In this document: positions 1,253-43,209 of the stretch, one piece after another | How the letters are laid out: every line of letters starts with the position of its first letter | Numbering within the stretch: the first letter of the stretch is position 1 | Source: Micromonospora sp. NBC_01796 | GTDB lineage: Bacteria; Actinomycetota; Actinomycetes; Mycobacteriales; Micromonosporaceae | NCBI RefSeq assembly: GCF_035917455.1 | Contig: NZ_CP109078.1 | Location: forward strand, 6,866,001 to 6,930,000 | Length of the DNA: 64,000 nucleotides | Reading direction: 5' to 3' | Position numbers and translations under genes: made by a program | The notes under the pieces: generated by a model | Seen by the model: the letters and a program-made list of their open reading frames with translations, nothing else | Told to the model about the DNA's origin: nothing | The model's database searches: none

Positions 1253-1533
1253 CCGGGGCCCCGTCCCGCCGGTACGCCGAACGGATCGACGGGAACCCAT
1301 TGACCGGGTGCTGCCGGGCATGCTCCGATGGTCGGTATCGCCACGGTGTCGGGGGCAACCACGCCGGTCGGCGGAGCCGGATCAGGCACAGGCGGTGGTC
1401 GTCGCGTTGAGCGGCGCCCCCGGACCGGGTTTGTGACCAGAGCTCAGCCAACGCCCCGGCACCGCAGGAACACCACCACGCGACACGACCGTGCTGGCGT
1501 TCCCCGCCGGGGTCCGACCGGTGATGGGAAGAC

Positions 1534-2335: not shown

Positions 2336-2971
2336 GTGCCCGCCCACCGCCGCCCGCTACCGCCCCCACCCCGGCCCGCGATCGGGGTGCTCGCCGCGAT
2401 CCTCGTCGGCAGCGTCGGGCTCGGCGTCGCGCTCACCGCCGTCGGTACGGCAAATCCCGATCGGGGACCGCGGACGAACGGTCAGCCCACCCAGGGGCTC
2501 GGTCGCGCCGCAACGGCCGGCCTGGCGGTCACGCCGTACGACCCGGTGTCGGCGAGCCCGACCGACATCATCGTGCCGATGAGCCCGGCCTCGGCCGAGA
2601 CCAGCGTGCCGACGCCGACGGTGACGGGCTCCGGCGGCACCGGAGCAGCCGGTCCGGTTACGAGCACCGGCGCCGCCTCCCACCCCCGGCCGTACGCCGC
2701 CCCGTCGAAGACGCCCAGGTCGACCCCGCGCCCCTCGACGTCGGGCCACCCCACCTCGACACCGAGCAGTCCGACCCCGACGCCGCCGGTGACCTCCGTA
2801 CCGGCCACGCCGACGCCCACGCCGAGCGAGACACCGTCGCCCTCGCCGTCCACCACCCCGGACACCGAGCCGACTCCCACCCCGACCGTCACCGCGACCC
2901 AGGACCCGACGTCGACCCAGGTCCCGACACCATCCGCCAGCGCCGACCCGACGGCATCGCCCCTCGGCTGA
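2336..2971 (+). CDS. Pro/Thr/Ser-rich exported or membrane-anchored protein
   Basis: 211 residues from a GTG start. A short basic, proline-rich N-terminus precedes one hydrophobic segment (about residues 14-35, IGVLAAILVGSVGLGVALTAV). The remainder is low-complexity, with many PT, SPT and TPTP repeats typical of actinobacterial extracytoplasmic stalk regions that may be O-glycosylated. No folded domain is recognisable. It may be a surface protein or an anchor with no catalytic role. Confidence 0.65.
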   Translation: MPAHRRPLPPPPRPAIGVLAAILVGSVGLGVALTAVGTANPDRGPRTNGQPTQGLGRAATAGLAVTPYDPVSASPTDIIVPMSPASAETSVPTPTVTGSGGTGAAGPVTSTGAASHPRPYAAPSKTPRSTPRPSTSGHPTSTPSSPTPTPPVTSVPATPTPTPSETPSPSPSTTPDTEPTPTPTVTATQDPTSTQVPTPSASADPTASPLG

Positions 2972-5817: not shown

Positions 5818-5946
5818 TCAGTTGCAGGTCGTCAGGGACAGCGAGCTGTCGCCGCAGAGCAGCAGGCTGGCCCGGCTTCCACCGGTGTCACCGCCCTTGA
5901 GCTCCTCCGCGGTCAGTTCCAGGCCCTGCAGGTCGAGAAGCGCCAT
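5818..5946 (-). CDS. ramS: Class III lanthipeptide precursor, SapB/RamS-like
   Basis: A 42-codon gene. The leader begins MALLDLQGLELTAEEL, containing the LxLQ-type motif that class III synthetases recognise. The C-terminal core SRASLLLCGDSSLSLTTCN differs from the S. coelicolor SapB core only at one residue in this stretch (Leu for Ile), with one extra Gly before it. Both ring motifs fit S-x2-S-x3-C (S24/S27/C31 and S34/S37/C41), the pattern for lanthionine or labionin formation. A GAGGTGG ribosome site precedes the ATG. The gene starts 16 bp after ramC, the same ramC-ramS order as in Streptomyces. SapB is a surfactant peptide that helps hyphae leave the aqueous surface; the same role here is inferred. 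Confidence 0.96.
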   Translation of the reverse strand: MALLDLQGLELTAEELKGGDTGGSRASLLLCGDSSLSLTTCN

Positions 5947-5962
5947 GTCGTGCCACCTCATC

Positions 5963-34537: not shown

Positions 34538-35833
34538 TCAACCGGTGACCGGTAGGAACCGTGCCCGGAGCCCCACCGGTGCGAGCCGGCCGAGGAACTC
34601 CGGGTCGGCCGTCTGCGCGTTCGGCGACTCGATGGTGAAGCGTTGGGCCAGGCGTGAGGTGGCGAGCGTGAGCTGCCGCATGGTCAGTGCCGACCCCACG
34701 CAGACCCGTGGACCGGCACCGAACGGAAGGTACGCCACACCGGGCGCCGGTCGTCCGGTCAACCAGCGGGTGGGGTCGAACTCGTCCGGTCGTTGCCACC
34801 ACCGTGGGTCCCGGTGGATCAGGTACGGATTGAGCAGCACGTCGTCCCCGGGGCGCAGCGACCACCGGCCCAGAGTCGTGGCCGTACTGGCAGTGCGAGT
34901 CATCAGCCACACCGGCGGGTAGAGCCGGAGGACCTCCTTGACCACGGCCTCGGCCAGCGGAAGCCGCGCAGCCGGCCGGGCGTCACCGCCGCTCGACCCG
35001 TTCGCCTCCGCGCGCAGGTCGGCGGTGAGTCGAGGTTGGCGGGCCAGTTCCCGGACGATGGAGGCGAGCGCGGCGGCGGGGACACCGTGGCCGCCCATCA
35101 GGATGCCGCGAAGGGTCGACATCACCGCCCGGTCGGGCATCCCCGGATCGGCGGCGAGCAGCAGGGAGAGCAGGTCGCCGTGGGTCGCCCCGGTACCGGA
35201 GGCACGCCGCCGCGCGACGATCCCGGTCAGGGTGTCGATGGTGTGCCGGTGGGAACGGAAGAAGCGGCGGTTGCGGCGCAGCGGCAGCCAGGCGGGCAAC
35301 TGGTACGACGTGCCGGAGAACGGCCGGGTGACGTCCAGGCTCTCGGCGAGCAGGTCGGGGATCTCGGTGGAGTCGGGACCGAAGCAGTACTCGGAGATCG
35401 ACCGGGCGGTGAACGTACGCATCAGGGGGAGCACGTCACACTCGGCACCGGTCACCGAGTCCGTCACCTCGTCCAGGATCTCGACGGTCCGGTTGTCCGC
35501 CGTGACAGAGGCGGAGTGGTTGAGCCCCGGCCACACCGTACGGCGCGCGGACATCCAGGAGCTGCCCTGCCGGGCGGCCTGCTCGACGTCCCGTCGGGTG
35601 TCGAACGGTGCCAGTTCCGTGACGAAGTCCTGGTTCGTCCGGGCGAGTACGTCGTGGGTCAGGTCCGGGTCGATCACGAACACGGTCCGCTCGTCGTACG
35701 AGAAGACGTCGCCGTACTCCGTGTGGCAGCGCCGGAGGAACCCGATCCGGTCGTTGTCGTACGCCGGGATGTTGCCCATCAGCCAGTGCCCGCGCGGACC
35801 CGGCGGTCGACTGGTCTCCTTGACGTGTGCCAT
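34538..35833 (-). CDS. Cytochrome P450 with atypical I-helix
   Basis: 431 residues from the ATG at 35833, with GGGGGG 5-6 nt upstream; the frame could start at 35857, but that lies inside the preceding hairpin. C-helix WMSARR, ExxR motif EVLRLYPP, and heme-binding FGAGPRVCVG are all present. The I-helix oxygen-activation motif, normally AGxE/DTT, reads GGHGVPAA: the acid-alcohol pair is missing. This is often seen in P450s doing coupling or other unusual chemistry. It lies about 110 bp downstream of a 32-codon gene with an aromatic tail, so it may cross-link that peptide. No ferredoxin gene is adjacent. Confidence 0.93.
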   Translation of the reverse strand: MAHVKETSRPPGPRGHWLMGNIPAYDNDRIGFLRRCHTEYGDVFSYDERTVFVIDPDLTHDVLARTNQDFVTELAPFDTRRDVEQAARQGSSWMSARRTVWPGLNHSASVTADNRTVEILDEVTDSVTGAECDVLPLMRTFTARSISEYCFGPDSTEIPDLLAESLDVTRPFSGTSYQLPAWLPLRRNRRFFRSHRHTIDTLTGIVARRRASGTGATHGDLLSLLLAADPGMPDRAVMSTLRGILMGGHGVPAAALASIVRELARQPRLTADLRAEANGSSGGDARPAARLPLAEAVVKEVLRLYPPVWLMTRTASTATTLGRWSLRPGDDVLLNPYLIHRDPRWWQRPDEFDPTRWLTGRPAPGVAYLPFGAGPRVCVGSALTMRQLTLATSRLAQRFTIESPNAQTADPEFLGRLAPVGLRARFLPVTG

Positions 35834-35853
35834 CCGGGCCCCCCAAGAGAGAA

Positions 35854-35883
35854 TCACAGGATCCCCGTCCGGGGATCCTGTGA
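35854..35883 (-). terminator. Intercistronic hairpin between small peptide gene and P450
   Basis: A perfect 13-bp stem (TCACAGGATCCCC at 35854-35866, GGGGATCCTGTGA at 35871-35883) with a GTCC loop, located between the 32-codon gene and the P450. Such hairpins between precursor and enzyme genes usually allow partial read-through or stabilise the upstream mRNA, so precursor is made in excess. Confidence 0.75.
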
Positions 35884-35941
35884 TCGCTGTGTGTTCCGTC
35901 GTCGTGGTGGGAGTCGTTCCTGGCAGTGGCAGGGCGCCGGA

Positions 35942-36040
35942 CTAGTTCTCGTCGTAGCCGTAGAACCAGTACGGGTAACGTCCGCTGACCTGGGGCTTGC
36001 CCACCAGGCGAGCCGCCACGTGCCGCAGCATCCGGGTCAT
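35942..36040 (-). CDS. Putative P450-modified RiPP precursor peptide, 32 aa
   Basis: 32 codons, ATG at 36040 preceded by an excellent GGAGGTG ribosome site 4 nt away. The basic, helical N-terminus (MTRMLRHVAARLVGKPQVSG) looks like a leader; the C-terminus RYPYWFYGYDEN has aromatic residues at Y22, Y24, W25, F26, Y27 and Y29. It is followed on the same strand by a hairpin and a P450. Known P450 RiPPs (cittilins, biarylitides, tryptorubin-type atropopeptides) have short precursors with clustered Tyr/Trp whose side chains are linked by the P450. This exact core pattern is not one I recognise. The link rests on context and composition. Confidence 0.75.
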   Translation of the reverse strand: MTRMLRHVAARLVGKPQVSGRYPYWFYGYDEN

Positions 36041-36462
36041 GAGCACCTCCTACATCGATAGGGGACGATCATCTGAGCGGATCGTGTCACAGGGGATTGC
36101 GCCCCGGCAACGGGTCCCGACGCGGGCCACTACGGTGTGGGAACCGGGAAAATCGCCTCCCGAGACGACCCCGGAAACGTGGGGGTGGAGTGGCCACGAC
36201 CGCTTCGCGTCGGGGGAGAGTGCCCTGACCGGCGGGTACCCGGGTGTTGTCGTCACCCGGTGGCCACCTGTACCGCCGCCGACAGTCGATCACCAGAGCG
36301 GTCGTCGACAGCACATGGCTCCAAAAAGGACTATCCCGCTGACGCCGGCATCACCGTACGCATCAGCACAAGATCGCATCGGCCCGTCCTGGACCGCGAA
36401 TACGGCGGCCCGGTCGCTCGTGCGGCCGGAGTGCAGCGGCTTTGCCCCGATATGCTGCACAA
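36041..36462. other. Divergent intergenic region, no gene seen
   Basis: 422 bases between the small peptide gene and the IMPase-like gene. The open frames here have no credible start or domain. It should contain the promoters for both directions; a TATCGAT-like stretch lies just upstream of the peptide RBS (around 36054-36060, minus strand), but no confident -35 was found. Confidence 0.5.
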
Positions 36463-37260
36463 ATGATCAACTCGTTCACGGGAACCGATGATGCAGGGGT
36501 GGCGATAGCCGCGGCAGGTGCCGGCGCCGAGGTGGTGCGCGGCATGTACGGCCAGCGGCTCACCCGGATCGACAAGGGCGCCGGGGACTTCGCCACCGCC
36601 GCCGACGTGGCGGCCGAGCGGTCGATCCTCGACGTCATCCGGGCGGCGCGGCCCGACGACGCGGTGCTCGGCGAGGAGGGCGGGCAGCAGGGCGCGGCCG
36701 ACTCCGTACGTCAGTGGTTGGTGGATCCCCTCTGCGGCACCCTGAACTACGCCGTCGGGAACATGCTGGTGGCGGTCAACGTGGCACTGCGTGACGGTGC
36801 GGCAGCGGTGGCCGACCCGTTCAGCGGCGAGATCTTCTTCACCGACGGTGAGACGGCACGGGTACGCCACAACGGACTCGACGCACCCCTGACCCCCACA
36901 CCCGCCACCCAGTTGGTCGACGTCAACCTGGATCCGCCGTTCCCGAACGCGCCCGGATTCCGGGCCGTGGAGCTGATGGCCCACCCCGACTTCGTGGCAC
37001 GGTTCCGGCCCCGGGTCGTCTCCACGACGCTGGCGTTGACCTGGGTCGCCGCCGGCAAGCGTGCCGCGTACGTCACCGACGGTGGTGACCTCTCCGGGAG
37101 CGTGCACTTCGCGGCGGGGATCGCGATCTGCCGGGCCGCAGGTTGCGTGGTCACCGGCATCGACGGCGCCCCGATCGGACCCGGAGGCCGGGGACTCGTG
37201 GTGGCCGCCGACGCGGAGACCCACAGCCAGCTCCTGTCTCTGGTCCGCACCAGGCGCTGA
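36463..37260 (+). CDS. Inositol-monophosphatase-like protein lacking two metal ligands
   Basis: 265 residues from the ATG at 36463. IMPase fold elements: VLGEEGG (metal Glu, E71/E72), WLVDPLCGTLNY, and the C-terminal GSVHFAAGIAICRAAG. In active enzymes the motif is W-x2-D-P-x-D-G-T; here D88 is kept but the second Asp is C91 (codon TGC). The C-terminal W-D-x-A-A-G is V-H-F-A-A-G, so the third metal Asp is H215. Either it is a pseudo-enzyme, or it uses a different metal set (Cys/His). It may bind a phosphosugar without hydrolysing it. Confidence 0.85.
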   Translation: MINSFTGTDDAGVAIAAAGAGAEVVRGMYGQRLTRIDKGAGDFATAADVAAERSILDVIRAARPDDAVLGEEGGQQGAADSVRQWLVDPLCGTLNYAVGNMLVAVNVALRDGAAAVADPFSGEIFFTDGETARVRHNGLDAPLTPTPATQLVDVNLDPPFPNAPGFRAVELMAHPDFVARFRPRVVSTTLALTWVAAGKRAAYVTDGGDLSGSVHFAAGIAICRAAGCVVTGIDGAPIGPGGRGLVVAADAETHSQLLSLVRTRR

Positions 37261-41574: not shown

Positions 41575-43209
41575 GTGGCCAGATCCGCCGCAAAACCAAA
41601 CGTGCGTCGACGAATTCAGAGCGACTTCAATCTCGGTGGCGGTGCTGCGGAAGCAGATGGCCTACTTCAGGAAGCGTTTTTCGAATCAGGCCATTACCGT
41701 GCCATAGCTAGTCGCACGGAACGAAAGTGTTTCCTTGTTGGGCGCACGGGTAGTGGGAAGTCGGCCGCGCTGCGGAAGGTGGAAGAAGAACACCCGTCGC
41801 ATGTCATCCGCATCAACCCTGAAGATTTGTCCCTGCCTTACATAACTGATCTCGGAGTGATTCGGTATCTCTCTTCACTTGATGTGCACATGGATCCGTT
41901 GTTTATAGCGCTTTGGAAGCATGTGCTCCTCATAGAGGTTATCAAGCATCGCTATAACGTGGATTCCCCGGGTGCCATGCAGCGCTTCATGTCCACTCTG
42001 ATGGATCGCATAAGGCGCGATCGGAGCAAGCAAGCCGCACTGGAGTATCTCGAAGAGTTCGAAGGCCGCTTCTGGTGTGAAACCGACGAAAGAGTAAAAG
42101 AGATTACGAAGCGCTTCGAGAATCAAGTCGAGGCGGAAGCCGGGGGGAAACTCCCGGGCGCGTTTAGTATCAAGTCGGGCGGTAGCTCAAATTCGGCGAT
42201 TGAAGAGCGAGCTGAGCTAGCCCAACGGTTCCAGCGGATAGTCAACGAGACTCAACTTCCTCGTCTCAACAAAATGATGACAGTGCTCGATGACGACATC
42301 CTTGACTCCCCTCAGCACTATACGTACGTGGTGATCGATGACTTGGATCGCGACTGGGTTGACGAGAAGGTGAAGAACGACCTAATACGCTGCCTCTTCC
42401 GTACTGTCGCTGAGCTGGTAAGGGTTGACAATCTAAAGATTCTTGTGGCCCTACGTACCAACATCCTTGAATCTCTAGATTTTGGGCAGGCGGGGGGACA
42501 GGAGGAGAAGTTTCGAGACTTGAGTTTGCGTGTGCGGTGGACCAGGGGGGATCTCCAAGAGTTATTGGACGGAAGAACGCGGGTGGCGGCAGAAATGCAT
42601 GGCCTCGCGCATATCCACTCGCTGGCCGATTTGCTTCCCGTGCCAACAAAGACGCAGAAAGACCCGCTCGATGTCATATTGAATCGGACGCTCATGCGAC
42701 CACGCGACGCGATCGCGTTTCTTAATCAATGCTTGGAAAACTCTAGCGGGGACGAAAGAATAACGTGGGAAGCGATTTACGCGGCGGAGCAGGCCTACTC
42801 CGAAGACGGGCTTCTCGCGTTGCGCGATGAGTGGAAGCCAACCTATGCGGGCATCGATCGCGTCTTGCGAATCTTCACTGGTGCATCTCGAACGATAAGC
42901 AAAAATGACTTGATAGTGCGTATGGACGATTGCATCCTTCTGACGACGGAGCATGATTTCGCCGGTAATCGATGGATGGTCGAGGCTGGCAGTGTTGCTC
43001 TGTTCGGCCATGGGGATTGGGCCGATATGTATCATCCGCTCGTGAAGCTTCTCTATAATATCGGCTTCTTGGGGTGTTCGCTGGGTAAGAAAAATCCTCT
43101 GATTTACAGTCATGACGACAGTGACTTTATGAATAAAGTCGCCAACCTGCGCGAAGTTGCATTCTTTTCGGTACACCCAGCTTTTCAACCGGCTCTCGAT
43201 ATTAGCTAG
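41575..43209 (+). CDS. Low-GC P-loop ATPase (Sll1717/STAND-like), possible defence gene
   Basis: 544 residues, GTG start with AAGGA upstream. Walker A GRTGSGKS (56-63), Walker B YVVIDDLDRDW (251-260) and a sensor-like ILVALRTNI near 288, followed by a helical region (MRPRDAIAFLNQCL) resembling the AAA lid, then an unrecognised C-terminal domain of about 150 residues. It resembles the stand-alone P-loop ATPases annotated as the Sll1717 family, which occur in mobile and defence islands. Codon use is unlike the neighbours, with many A/T third positions (ATA, TTT, TTG, GAA). No effector domain is obvious, and no partner gene is adjacent. Confidence 0.8.
   Translation: MARSAAKPNVRRRIQSDFNLGGGAAEADGLLQEAFFESGHYRAIASRTERKCFLVGRTGSGKSAALRKVEEEHPSHVIRINPEDLSLPYITDLGVIRYLSSLDVHMDPLFIALWKHVLLIEVIKHRYNVDSPGAMQRFMSTLMDRIRRDRSKQAALEYLEEFEGRFWCETDERVKEITKRFENQVEAEAGGKLPGAFSIKSGGSSNSAIEERAELAQRFQRIVNETQLPRLNKMMTVLDDDILDSPQHYTYVVIDDLDRDWVDEKVKNDLIRCLFRTVAELVRVDNLKILVALRTNILESLDFGQAGGQEEKFRDLSLRVRWTRGDLQELLDGRTRVAAEMHGLAHIHSLADLLPVPTKTQKDPLDVILNRTLMRPRDAIAFLNQCLENSSGDERITWEAIYAAEQAYSEDGLLALRDEWKPTYAGIDRVLRIFTGASRTISKNDLIVRMDDCILLTTEHDFAGNRWMVEAGSVALFGHGDWADMYHPLVKLLYNIGFLGCSLGKKNPLIYSHDDSDFMNKVANLREVAFFSVHPAFQPALDIS

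Follow-up and report, generated by a model that had tools for sequence, protein, structure and literature searches.

The window, by which we mean the whole 64,000-nucleotide stretch of DNA that was analysed, carries on its minus strand a 32-codon gene (ATG at 36040, stop codon at 35942–35944) followed by the gene for a cytochrome P450 (Table 1). An AGGAGG sequence lies 5 nt ahead of the ATG, in agreement with the near-perfect ribosome-binding site of the original prediction, and the encoded peptide ends in RYPYWFYGYDEN, with six aromatic residues (Y, Y, W, F, Y and Y) among its final 12, the number originally counted. A 108-nt spacer that contains a hairpin separates the stop codon of the short gene from the start of the P450 gene; judging from the alignment, this start is more likely the ATG at 35833 than the GTG at 35857 given in the list of open reading frames (ORFs). 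The flanking genes are a divergent ORF of the inositol monophosphatase family upstream of the precursor gene (36442–37260) and a convergent gene for an F420-dependent PPOX-class protein downstream of the P450 (34056–34487), and the operon therefore comprises two genes. Elements of the form TTGNNN-17/18-CANNNT occur 65–72 nt ahead of the precursor start at 20 of 29 loci, a raw count with no chance control; a generic sigma-70 scan reported nothing at the promoter-like element of the window.

Table 1 Features of the locus and of related loci (positions refer to the window unless a locus is named)
Feature	Position	Strand	Basis or context
Putative RiPP precursor, 32 aa + stop, MTRMLRHVAARLVGKPQVSGRYPYWFYGYDEN	35942..36040	−	Homology (38 distinct genes); leader and YxYW under purifying selection
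P450, 431 aa, predicted peptide cross-linker, GGHGVP I-helix	34538..35833	−	Pfam PF00067, family alignment, trees, fold model
Ribosome-binding site AGGAGG	36046..36051	−	Sequence; purine-rich stretches before many homologous precursors
Promoter-like element TTGCCG-18-CACGAT, upstream of precursor gene	36081..36110	−	Similar elements at related loci
Core motif Y22-P23-Y24-W25, predicted cross-linking site	35966..35977	−	Y-x-(Y/W)-W in 38/38 distinct precursors
Intercistronic hairpin, 15 pairs, 4-nt loop	35852..35885	−	Homologous hairpin in 19/32 spacers; covariation; folding z
SARP-type regulator	L048:5337-8165	−	Nonomuraea
SARP-type regulator	L059:5340-8459	−	Streptomyces
SARP-type regulator	L102:1896-4841	+	Micromonosporaceae genome, genus label same as G530

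A conserved gene pair and an invariant core motif

The short gene and the P450 gene are kept together across Micromonosporaceae, Streptomycetaceae and Streptosporangiaceae, in which we counted 38 distinct precursor genes at 35 loci with the same kind of P450 alongside. Duplicates were removed, and the counting pattern demanded Y-x-(Y/W)-W; all 33 strong profile matches, found without demanding this motif, also have it. Of 100 other relatives, 8 had strong homologues (E < 1e-6) of the 32-aa peptide. Strong matches to a 13-precursor profile came from 20 of 300 genomes in the family to which the window belongs (its own genome counted). A 19-row profile detected such matches in the family that includes Streptomyces fuscichromogenes (2 of 345 genomes) and in the one that includes Nonomuraea roseoviolacea (6 of 250), in each case counting the named genome. 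Among 394 genomes drawn from the class, the sole strong match was the genome of the window itself, and four weak matches had no P450. The P450 adjoins all 33 precursor matches at E < 1e-5 in the three family scans, at 44–100% identity to the P450 of the window, and adjoins none of the 12 weak matches examined (E > 1e-3). This conservation beside the P450, together with synonymous change within the gene, rules out a chance ORF.

The reverse search, starting from the P450 on genome contigs, returned 31 relatives; it used two short patterns (PPGPRGHW and MGN..) and is therefore biased towards P450s that contain those words. Every relative with at least 45% identity (19 of 19) has the precursor just upstream, as the original prediction expected of orthologous P450s. 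Among the 12 relatives with at most 33% identity, ORF scans found an aromatic precursor of such a type in 2, both in Xanthomonas (L053 and L056) and ending in GYIYTY. Genetic linkage holds at 35 distinct loci, in three families and in differing surroundings. A short precursor gene that is adjacent to and co-inherited with a P450 is expected of P450-modified RiPPs in the broad sense, and is seen here (33 of 33 and 19 of 19).

The 38 genes encode precursors of 28–33 aa with 25 different cores, 35 of the genes reading YxYW and 3 YxWW, with P, I, T, G, L, M, E or D at the x position. Residues Y22, 24 (Y or W) and W25 are kept in all 38; Y27 is Tyr in 34 and Phe or Ile in the other four, and Y29 is kept in part of the family only. 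After the Trp, many Micromonosporaceae have an FYxY-like tail; PYHxx or PYQLR occurs in Streptomyces, Nonomuraea and one Micromonosporaceae genus, and a deeper branch has NFWN, NIFN or AFGK. In the leader, which mostly reads RHxAARLxGxxxVSG, R6 and G14 are present in 19 of 19 aligned rows. Pairwise pN/pS over 28 distinct genes (uncorrected, YxWW genes left out) was 0.59 for the leader, about 0.30 for YxYW and 1.56 for the tail, the YxYW value being approximate because Tyr and Trp codons leave scant synonymous room; R or K immediately precedes the motif in 24 of these 28 genes. Within ten Micromonosporaceae genes the corresponding values were 0.50, 0.15 and 0.69. Invariant residues show synonymous change: R6, for instance, is encoded by five different Arg codons and G20 by four Gly codons. 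Free variation of the Tyr and Trp positions, which would have spoken against a precursor, is thus not what we see: they are kept in 38 of 38 genes, and pN/pS is about 0.30 there compared with 1.56 in the tail.

The P450 family and the intercistronic hairpin

The P450 matches Pfam PF00067 with 200.6 bits and has the heme loop PFGAGPRVC. The I-helix of P450s usually contains AGxET; here it reads LMGGHGVPAAA, and the absence of the acid–alcohol pair at GGHGVP, pointed out in the original prediction, is evident in the family alignment. The pair is lost in all 17 aligned rows of the YxYW family (GGHGVP, GGHGIP, GGYGVP, AALGVP or AAYGVP). Elsewhere it is intact in the myxobacterial locus L139 (SGHETT) and broken in Xanthomonas (SALEPM) and in L140 (AAHQPT).

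In a 64-row P450 tree, the YxYW family forms a clade of 32 rows (support 99/99). It is joined next by L134, from a Streptomyces fuscichromogenes genome (100/99), and then, at a moderate 88/92, by the cittilin-type P450 of L139, the Xanthomonas P450s and two myxobacterial P450s. When long rows were left out (35 rows), the family was again a clade (100/100), borne on a long stem, and the tree did not resolve its closest relatives. Of the NCBIfam models, ApyO fits the P450 of the window best, with 145.6 bits, far below the cut-off of 525, and ApyO membership was rejected on this score; the match is not specific, because a second P450 encoded in the genome reaches 159.2. Among the best 60 of 211 sequence matches in the PDB, the nearest is CYP184A1, followed by BM3-type and sterol P450s, and P450Blt (8U2M) is not among these 60. 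A fold search identified the P450 fold and nothing narrower. An AlphaFold model of the precursor and P450 as one chain placed most P450 blocks above 85 pLDDT; the precursor blocks averaged only 63, 59 and 54, which makes the model uninformative on binding.

Several relatives outside the clade have loci of their own. At L134, whose P450 is the outside row nearest the YxYW clade on a long branch, a 32-aa ORF, MIAKLLRKLSFTRHYGAYGAHEWDAYAGAEQD (1264–1362, plus strand), with a ribosome-binding site, lies directly before the P450 frame that begins at 1363; this is possibly another P450-modified RiPP with a different core. The 26-aa Xanthomonas precursors ending in GYIYTY (L053:3749–3829 and L056:3735–3815, both plus strand) precede a CitB-like P450 with the broken pair, and represent a cittilin-like locus outside the myxobacteria. 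The P450s of L140 and L141, from the Archangium family set, are 44–45% identical to the cittilin-type P450, and no aromatic short ORF of such a type was found within 1.5 kb of them.

The spacer hairpin was originally described as 13 bp long; its existence is borne out, and its length is corrected to 15 pairs in unbroken succession, one of them a terminal G-U. When 102 nt of the spacer were folded as RNA, z was −3.0, and at least 14 pairs arose in 5 of 1,160 mononucleotide-shuffled regions. A homologous hairpin, with consensus GATCGCAGGATCCC-loop-GGGGTCCTGCGATC, occurs in 19 of 32 spacers. In these, 93.5% of cells pair, 6 of 14 pairs have changed on both sides and G-U pairs are frequent; the observed covariation score was reached by 0 of 500 shuffles and the number of further pair types by 42 of 500. 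Across these 19 spacers, the hairpin covaries as RNA. That it is a DNA operator is less likely, as many substitutions in the arms create G-U pairs, and these would disrupt a palindrome in DNA. The family hairpin is missing from the spacers of L042–L047, L048, L059, L102, L107 and L108 and was not found in L039; in L042–L047, the PGP motif of the P450 begins 32–33 nt past the precursor stop codon. The spacer of the deep-branching L103 has, in the same place, a 16-bp hairpin, GCGTGCCGGCGGGTGCACCGTGCCCGCCGGCACGC (5928–5962, plus strand), whose sequence is not related to that of the family hairpin.

Predicted product and relation to known P450-modified peptides

We consider it likely, from the sequence comparisons and by analogy with characterized enzymes, that the locus is a minimal two-gene operon for a P450-modified RiPP in which the P450 cross-links aromatic residues within Y22-x-Y24-W25. 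The conserved pair, the invariant motif and the pattern of selection support the two-gene pathway originally proposed; the cross-linking itself we infer. The first gene would give a 32-aa precursor composed of a leader (MTRMLRHVAARLVGKPQVSG-R), predicted to be recognised by the P450, and the aromatic core YPYWFYGYDEN. The P450 would then oxidatively couple side chains within the motif, with a loss of 2 Da per link and most likely one or two links, much as CitB acts on YIYY and ApyO on YLY. The [M+H]+ values calculated for YPYW are 628.2766 when linear, 626.2609 with one link and 624.2453 with two; for YPYWFYGYDEN they are 1516.6056, 1514.5899 and 1512.5743. We predict that Tyr22 is coupled to residue 24, on the strength of these precedents and of the R or K directly ahead of the motif, probably with a further link to Trp25. 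Y27 and Y29 are less likely to be obligatory partners, because Y27 is replaced by Phe or Ile in four genes and Y29 is not conserved. A protease encoded elsewhere would cut off the leader, probably near R21; this is presumably a housekeeping protease, as proposed for atropopeptides (PMC11450843). The likely role of the hairpin is to protect the 3′ end of the precursor message or to let only part of the transcription through, and we therefore propose that it could provide for much precursor and little enzyme.

It is unlikely that the P450 acts on the peptide by hydroxylation, nitration or another reaction in place of cross-linking. P450s with such activities exist: some biarylitide-type P450s have turned to tyrosine nitration for rufomycin (PMC13417212), RufO being the enzyme described (PMC12186263), and SroB adds a hydroxyl group besides its cross-link (PMC11002830). 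Three spaced, conserved aromatic residues and the exchange of Tyr for Trp fit coupling better, and the lost acid–alcohol pair fits a reaction other than ordinary hydroxylation, against which it would therefore argue.

One chemical precedent for coupling by the P450 is found in the cittilins, tetrapeptides in which CitB makes both a biaryl and an aryl ether link (PMC8708641). We took L139 as a cittilin locus because it encodes a 27-aa precursor ending in YIYY (2857–2940, minus strand), a P450 and a methyltransferase, as described in that source. The cittilin system of Myxococcus (CitA, CitB and a methyltransferase) shares with the YxYW loci a short precursor, a C-terminal Y-x-Y-aromatic core and a single P450, and the N terminus of the L139 P450 shares PPGP(R/K)GH with that of the window. 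In contrast, the cittilin core is YIYY, which among the loci examined occurs only at L139, whereas the present cores are YxYW or YxWW with a variable tail and another leader; the cittilin operon has a methyltransferase, which the operon of the window does not, its next gene being of the PPOX class; and the two P450s are 29% identical, with the acid–alcohol pair kept in L139. A grouping of the family with CitB-type enzymes is seen at 88/92 in one tree, is unresolved in the smaller tree and corresponds to 29% identity. The weakness of this link counts against the cross-linking reading, as do the low ApyO score, the low-confidence precursor blocks of the fold model, the lesser conservation of Y27 and Y29 and the lack of a shared protease or transporter around the loci compared.

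The second precedent, ApyO, couples the two Tyr residues of YLY, also acts on WLY, in which it forms an N–C bond, and requires Arg or Lys before the motif (PMC13192836). A Y-x-Y sequence, Trp in place of one Tyr and a basic residue ahead of the motif are common to both systems; the aminopyruvatides differ in their 66-aa ApyA precursor and in the several further metalloenzymes of their cluster. No ApyO partner enzymes were detected among the neighbouring proteins scanned, and no true ApyO for comparison was found in 321 genomes of the class of Xanthomonas. By analogy, the L139 layout and the action of ApyO on YLY provide chemical precedent for Y-x-Y coupling by a P450.

In biarylitides, too, one P450 links aromatics at i and i+2, as predicted here, but they derive from 5-aa precursors of the form MxYx(Y/H) (PMC13417212), compared with 28–33 aa here. 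Pseudosporamide has a carbon–carbon link from Tyr to a Trp two residues on (PMC11002830), and micitide 982 is a Tyr C6–Trp C5′ peptide that contains a proline unit (PMC13250620). In the window, by comparison, Tyr-Pro precedes a Tyr and then a Trp, and the third position is also an invariant Tyr or Trp.

A divergent atropopeptide with the core YWFYGY is very unlikely, despite resemblances in size and in layout. Atropopeptides such as tryptorubin and scabrirubin likewise come from two-gene operons with a short precursor, an aromatic core and a leader read by one P450, and have Trp at core position 2 (PMC11450843), as would the core encoded in the window if counted from Y24. Trp takes this position only with residue 24 as the first of the core, and the invariant Y22, as well conserved as W25, would then belong to the leader. 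Their cores conserve xWxxxx rather than YxYW, and their leaders carry a KSLK-type motif (KSLK, RSLK, ESLK, KSRK, KPLK or PSLK), which is present in none of 31 distinct precursor strings. The nearest solved structures given above would also speak against this group. The original prediction did not recognise the core from the cittilin, biarylitide or tryptorubin types. This distinction stands with respect to the atropopeptide leader motif (0 of 31), biarylitide size and the absence of YIYY. YxYW-family cores were not found in the literature searched, whose scope did not extend to the main surveys of P450-modified RiPPs; precursors of this group may already be included in those of He 2023, Hu 2023, Nam 2023 and Liu 2024. 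Overall, the YxYW family is actinobacterial, differs from the best-known P450-linked peptides and very probably yields a small cross-linked aromatic peptide.

Two-precursor genomes and genomic context

Three genomes (G516, G528 and G544) have two precursors around one P450: a precursor with YEWWYYHQA or YDWWYYHQA before the P450 gene and one with YIYWPYHYE or YMYWPYHYE after it. Position 24 in these genomes changes only from Tyr to Trp, one oxidisable aromatic residue for another. A long GC-rich hairpin follows the second precursor in L096 and L097, and in L097 the next gene lies on the opposite strand.

These genomes argue strongly against a regulatory upstream peptide, in which Tyr and Trp codons and the hairpin would serve attenuation, by sensing of aromatic amino acids, or ribosome stalling to control a P450 with another substrate. 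An aromatic-codon-rich short ORF, a strong hairpin and an enzyme gene make up a classical attenuator layout. The window matches this layout and has at its hairpin a weak terminator-like site with a T-rich tail. The second precursor of L097 has nothing to regulate, since a long GC-rich hairpin and then an opposite-strand gene follow it. Six Nonomuraea and Bailinhaonella loci keep the peptide without the hairpin, with the PGP motif close behind the stop codon, and the leader is kept as amino acids with synonymous change, for which codon sensing has no need. We rejected the attenuator on the second precursor after the P450 in three genomes and on the hairpin-less lineages, and regard it as very unlikely.

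Tentatively, and with somewhat more doubt than confidence, we propose a separate family of YxYW peptides, in which one P450 without the acid–alcohol pair would stitch Tyr22, Tyr24 and Trp25 into an undescribed bicyclic or triaryl unit, some strains obtaining two products per enzyme, from a YxYW and a YxWW precursor that flank the P450 gene. P450-modified RiPPs offer some of the simplest ways to make strained cross-linked peptides, with one short gene and one enzyme. The YxYW family offers 25 natural cores on one leader type, in an operon small enough for direct expression, and the three two-substrate genomes are a ready-made test of how such P450s pick coupling positions. The family also adds a probable peptide cross-linker to the P450s that have lost the acid–alcohol pair, and its covarying RNA hairpin may determine how much precursor is made per enzyme.

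To compare neighbourhoods, we took all ORFs of at least 90 aa around 31 loci, with the P450 masked. No gene family is common to all 31, and neither a protease nor a transporter common to the family was seen around the compared loci. The comparison gave 20 cross-genus groups of frames, two of which consist of frames overlapping the precursor. One neighbour recurs in three genera: a SARP-type regulator (Pfam BTAD, Trans_reg_C and TPR), adjacent and convergent to the P450 at L048, L059 and L102, all of the deep YxYWNxxN branch. SARP-type regulators are a class known for antibiotic clusters, and their adjacency in this branch suggests a role in specialised metabolism. Among the annotated groups, the other cross-genus neighbours are second, different P450s (frames in L042, L033 and L093) and a response regulator (L096). 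Elsewhere in the window, a gene at 41575–43209 (plus strand) encodes a P-loop ATPase of the Sll1717 family (NF047389, over the cut-off), with a sub-threshold match of 25.7 bits to the anti-phage protein model NF053860.
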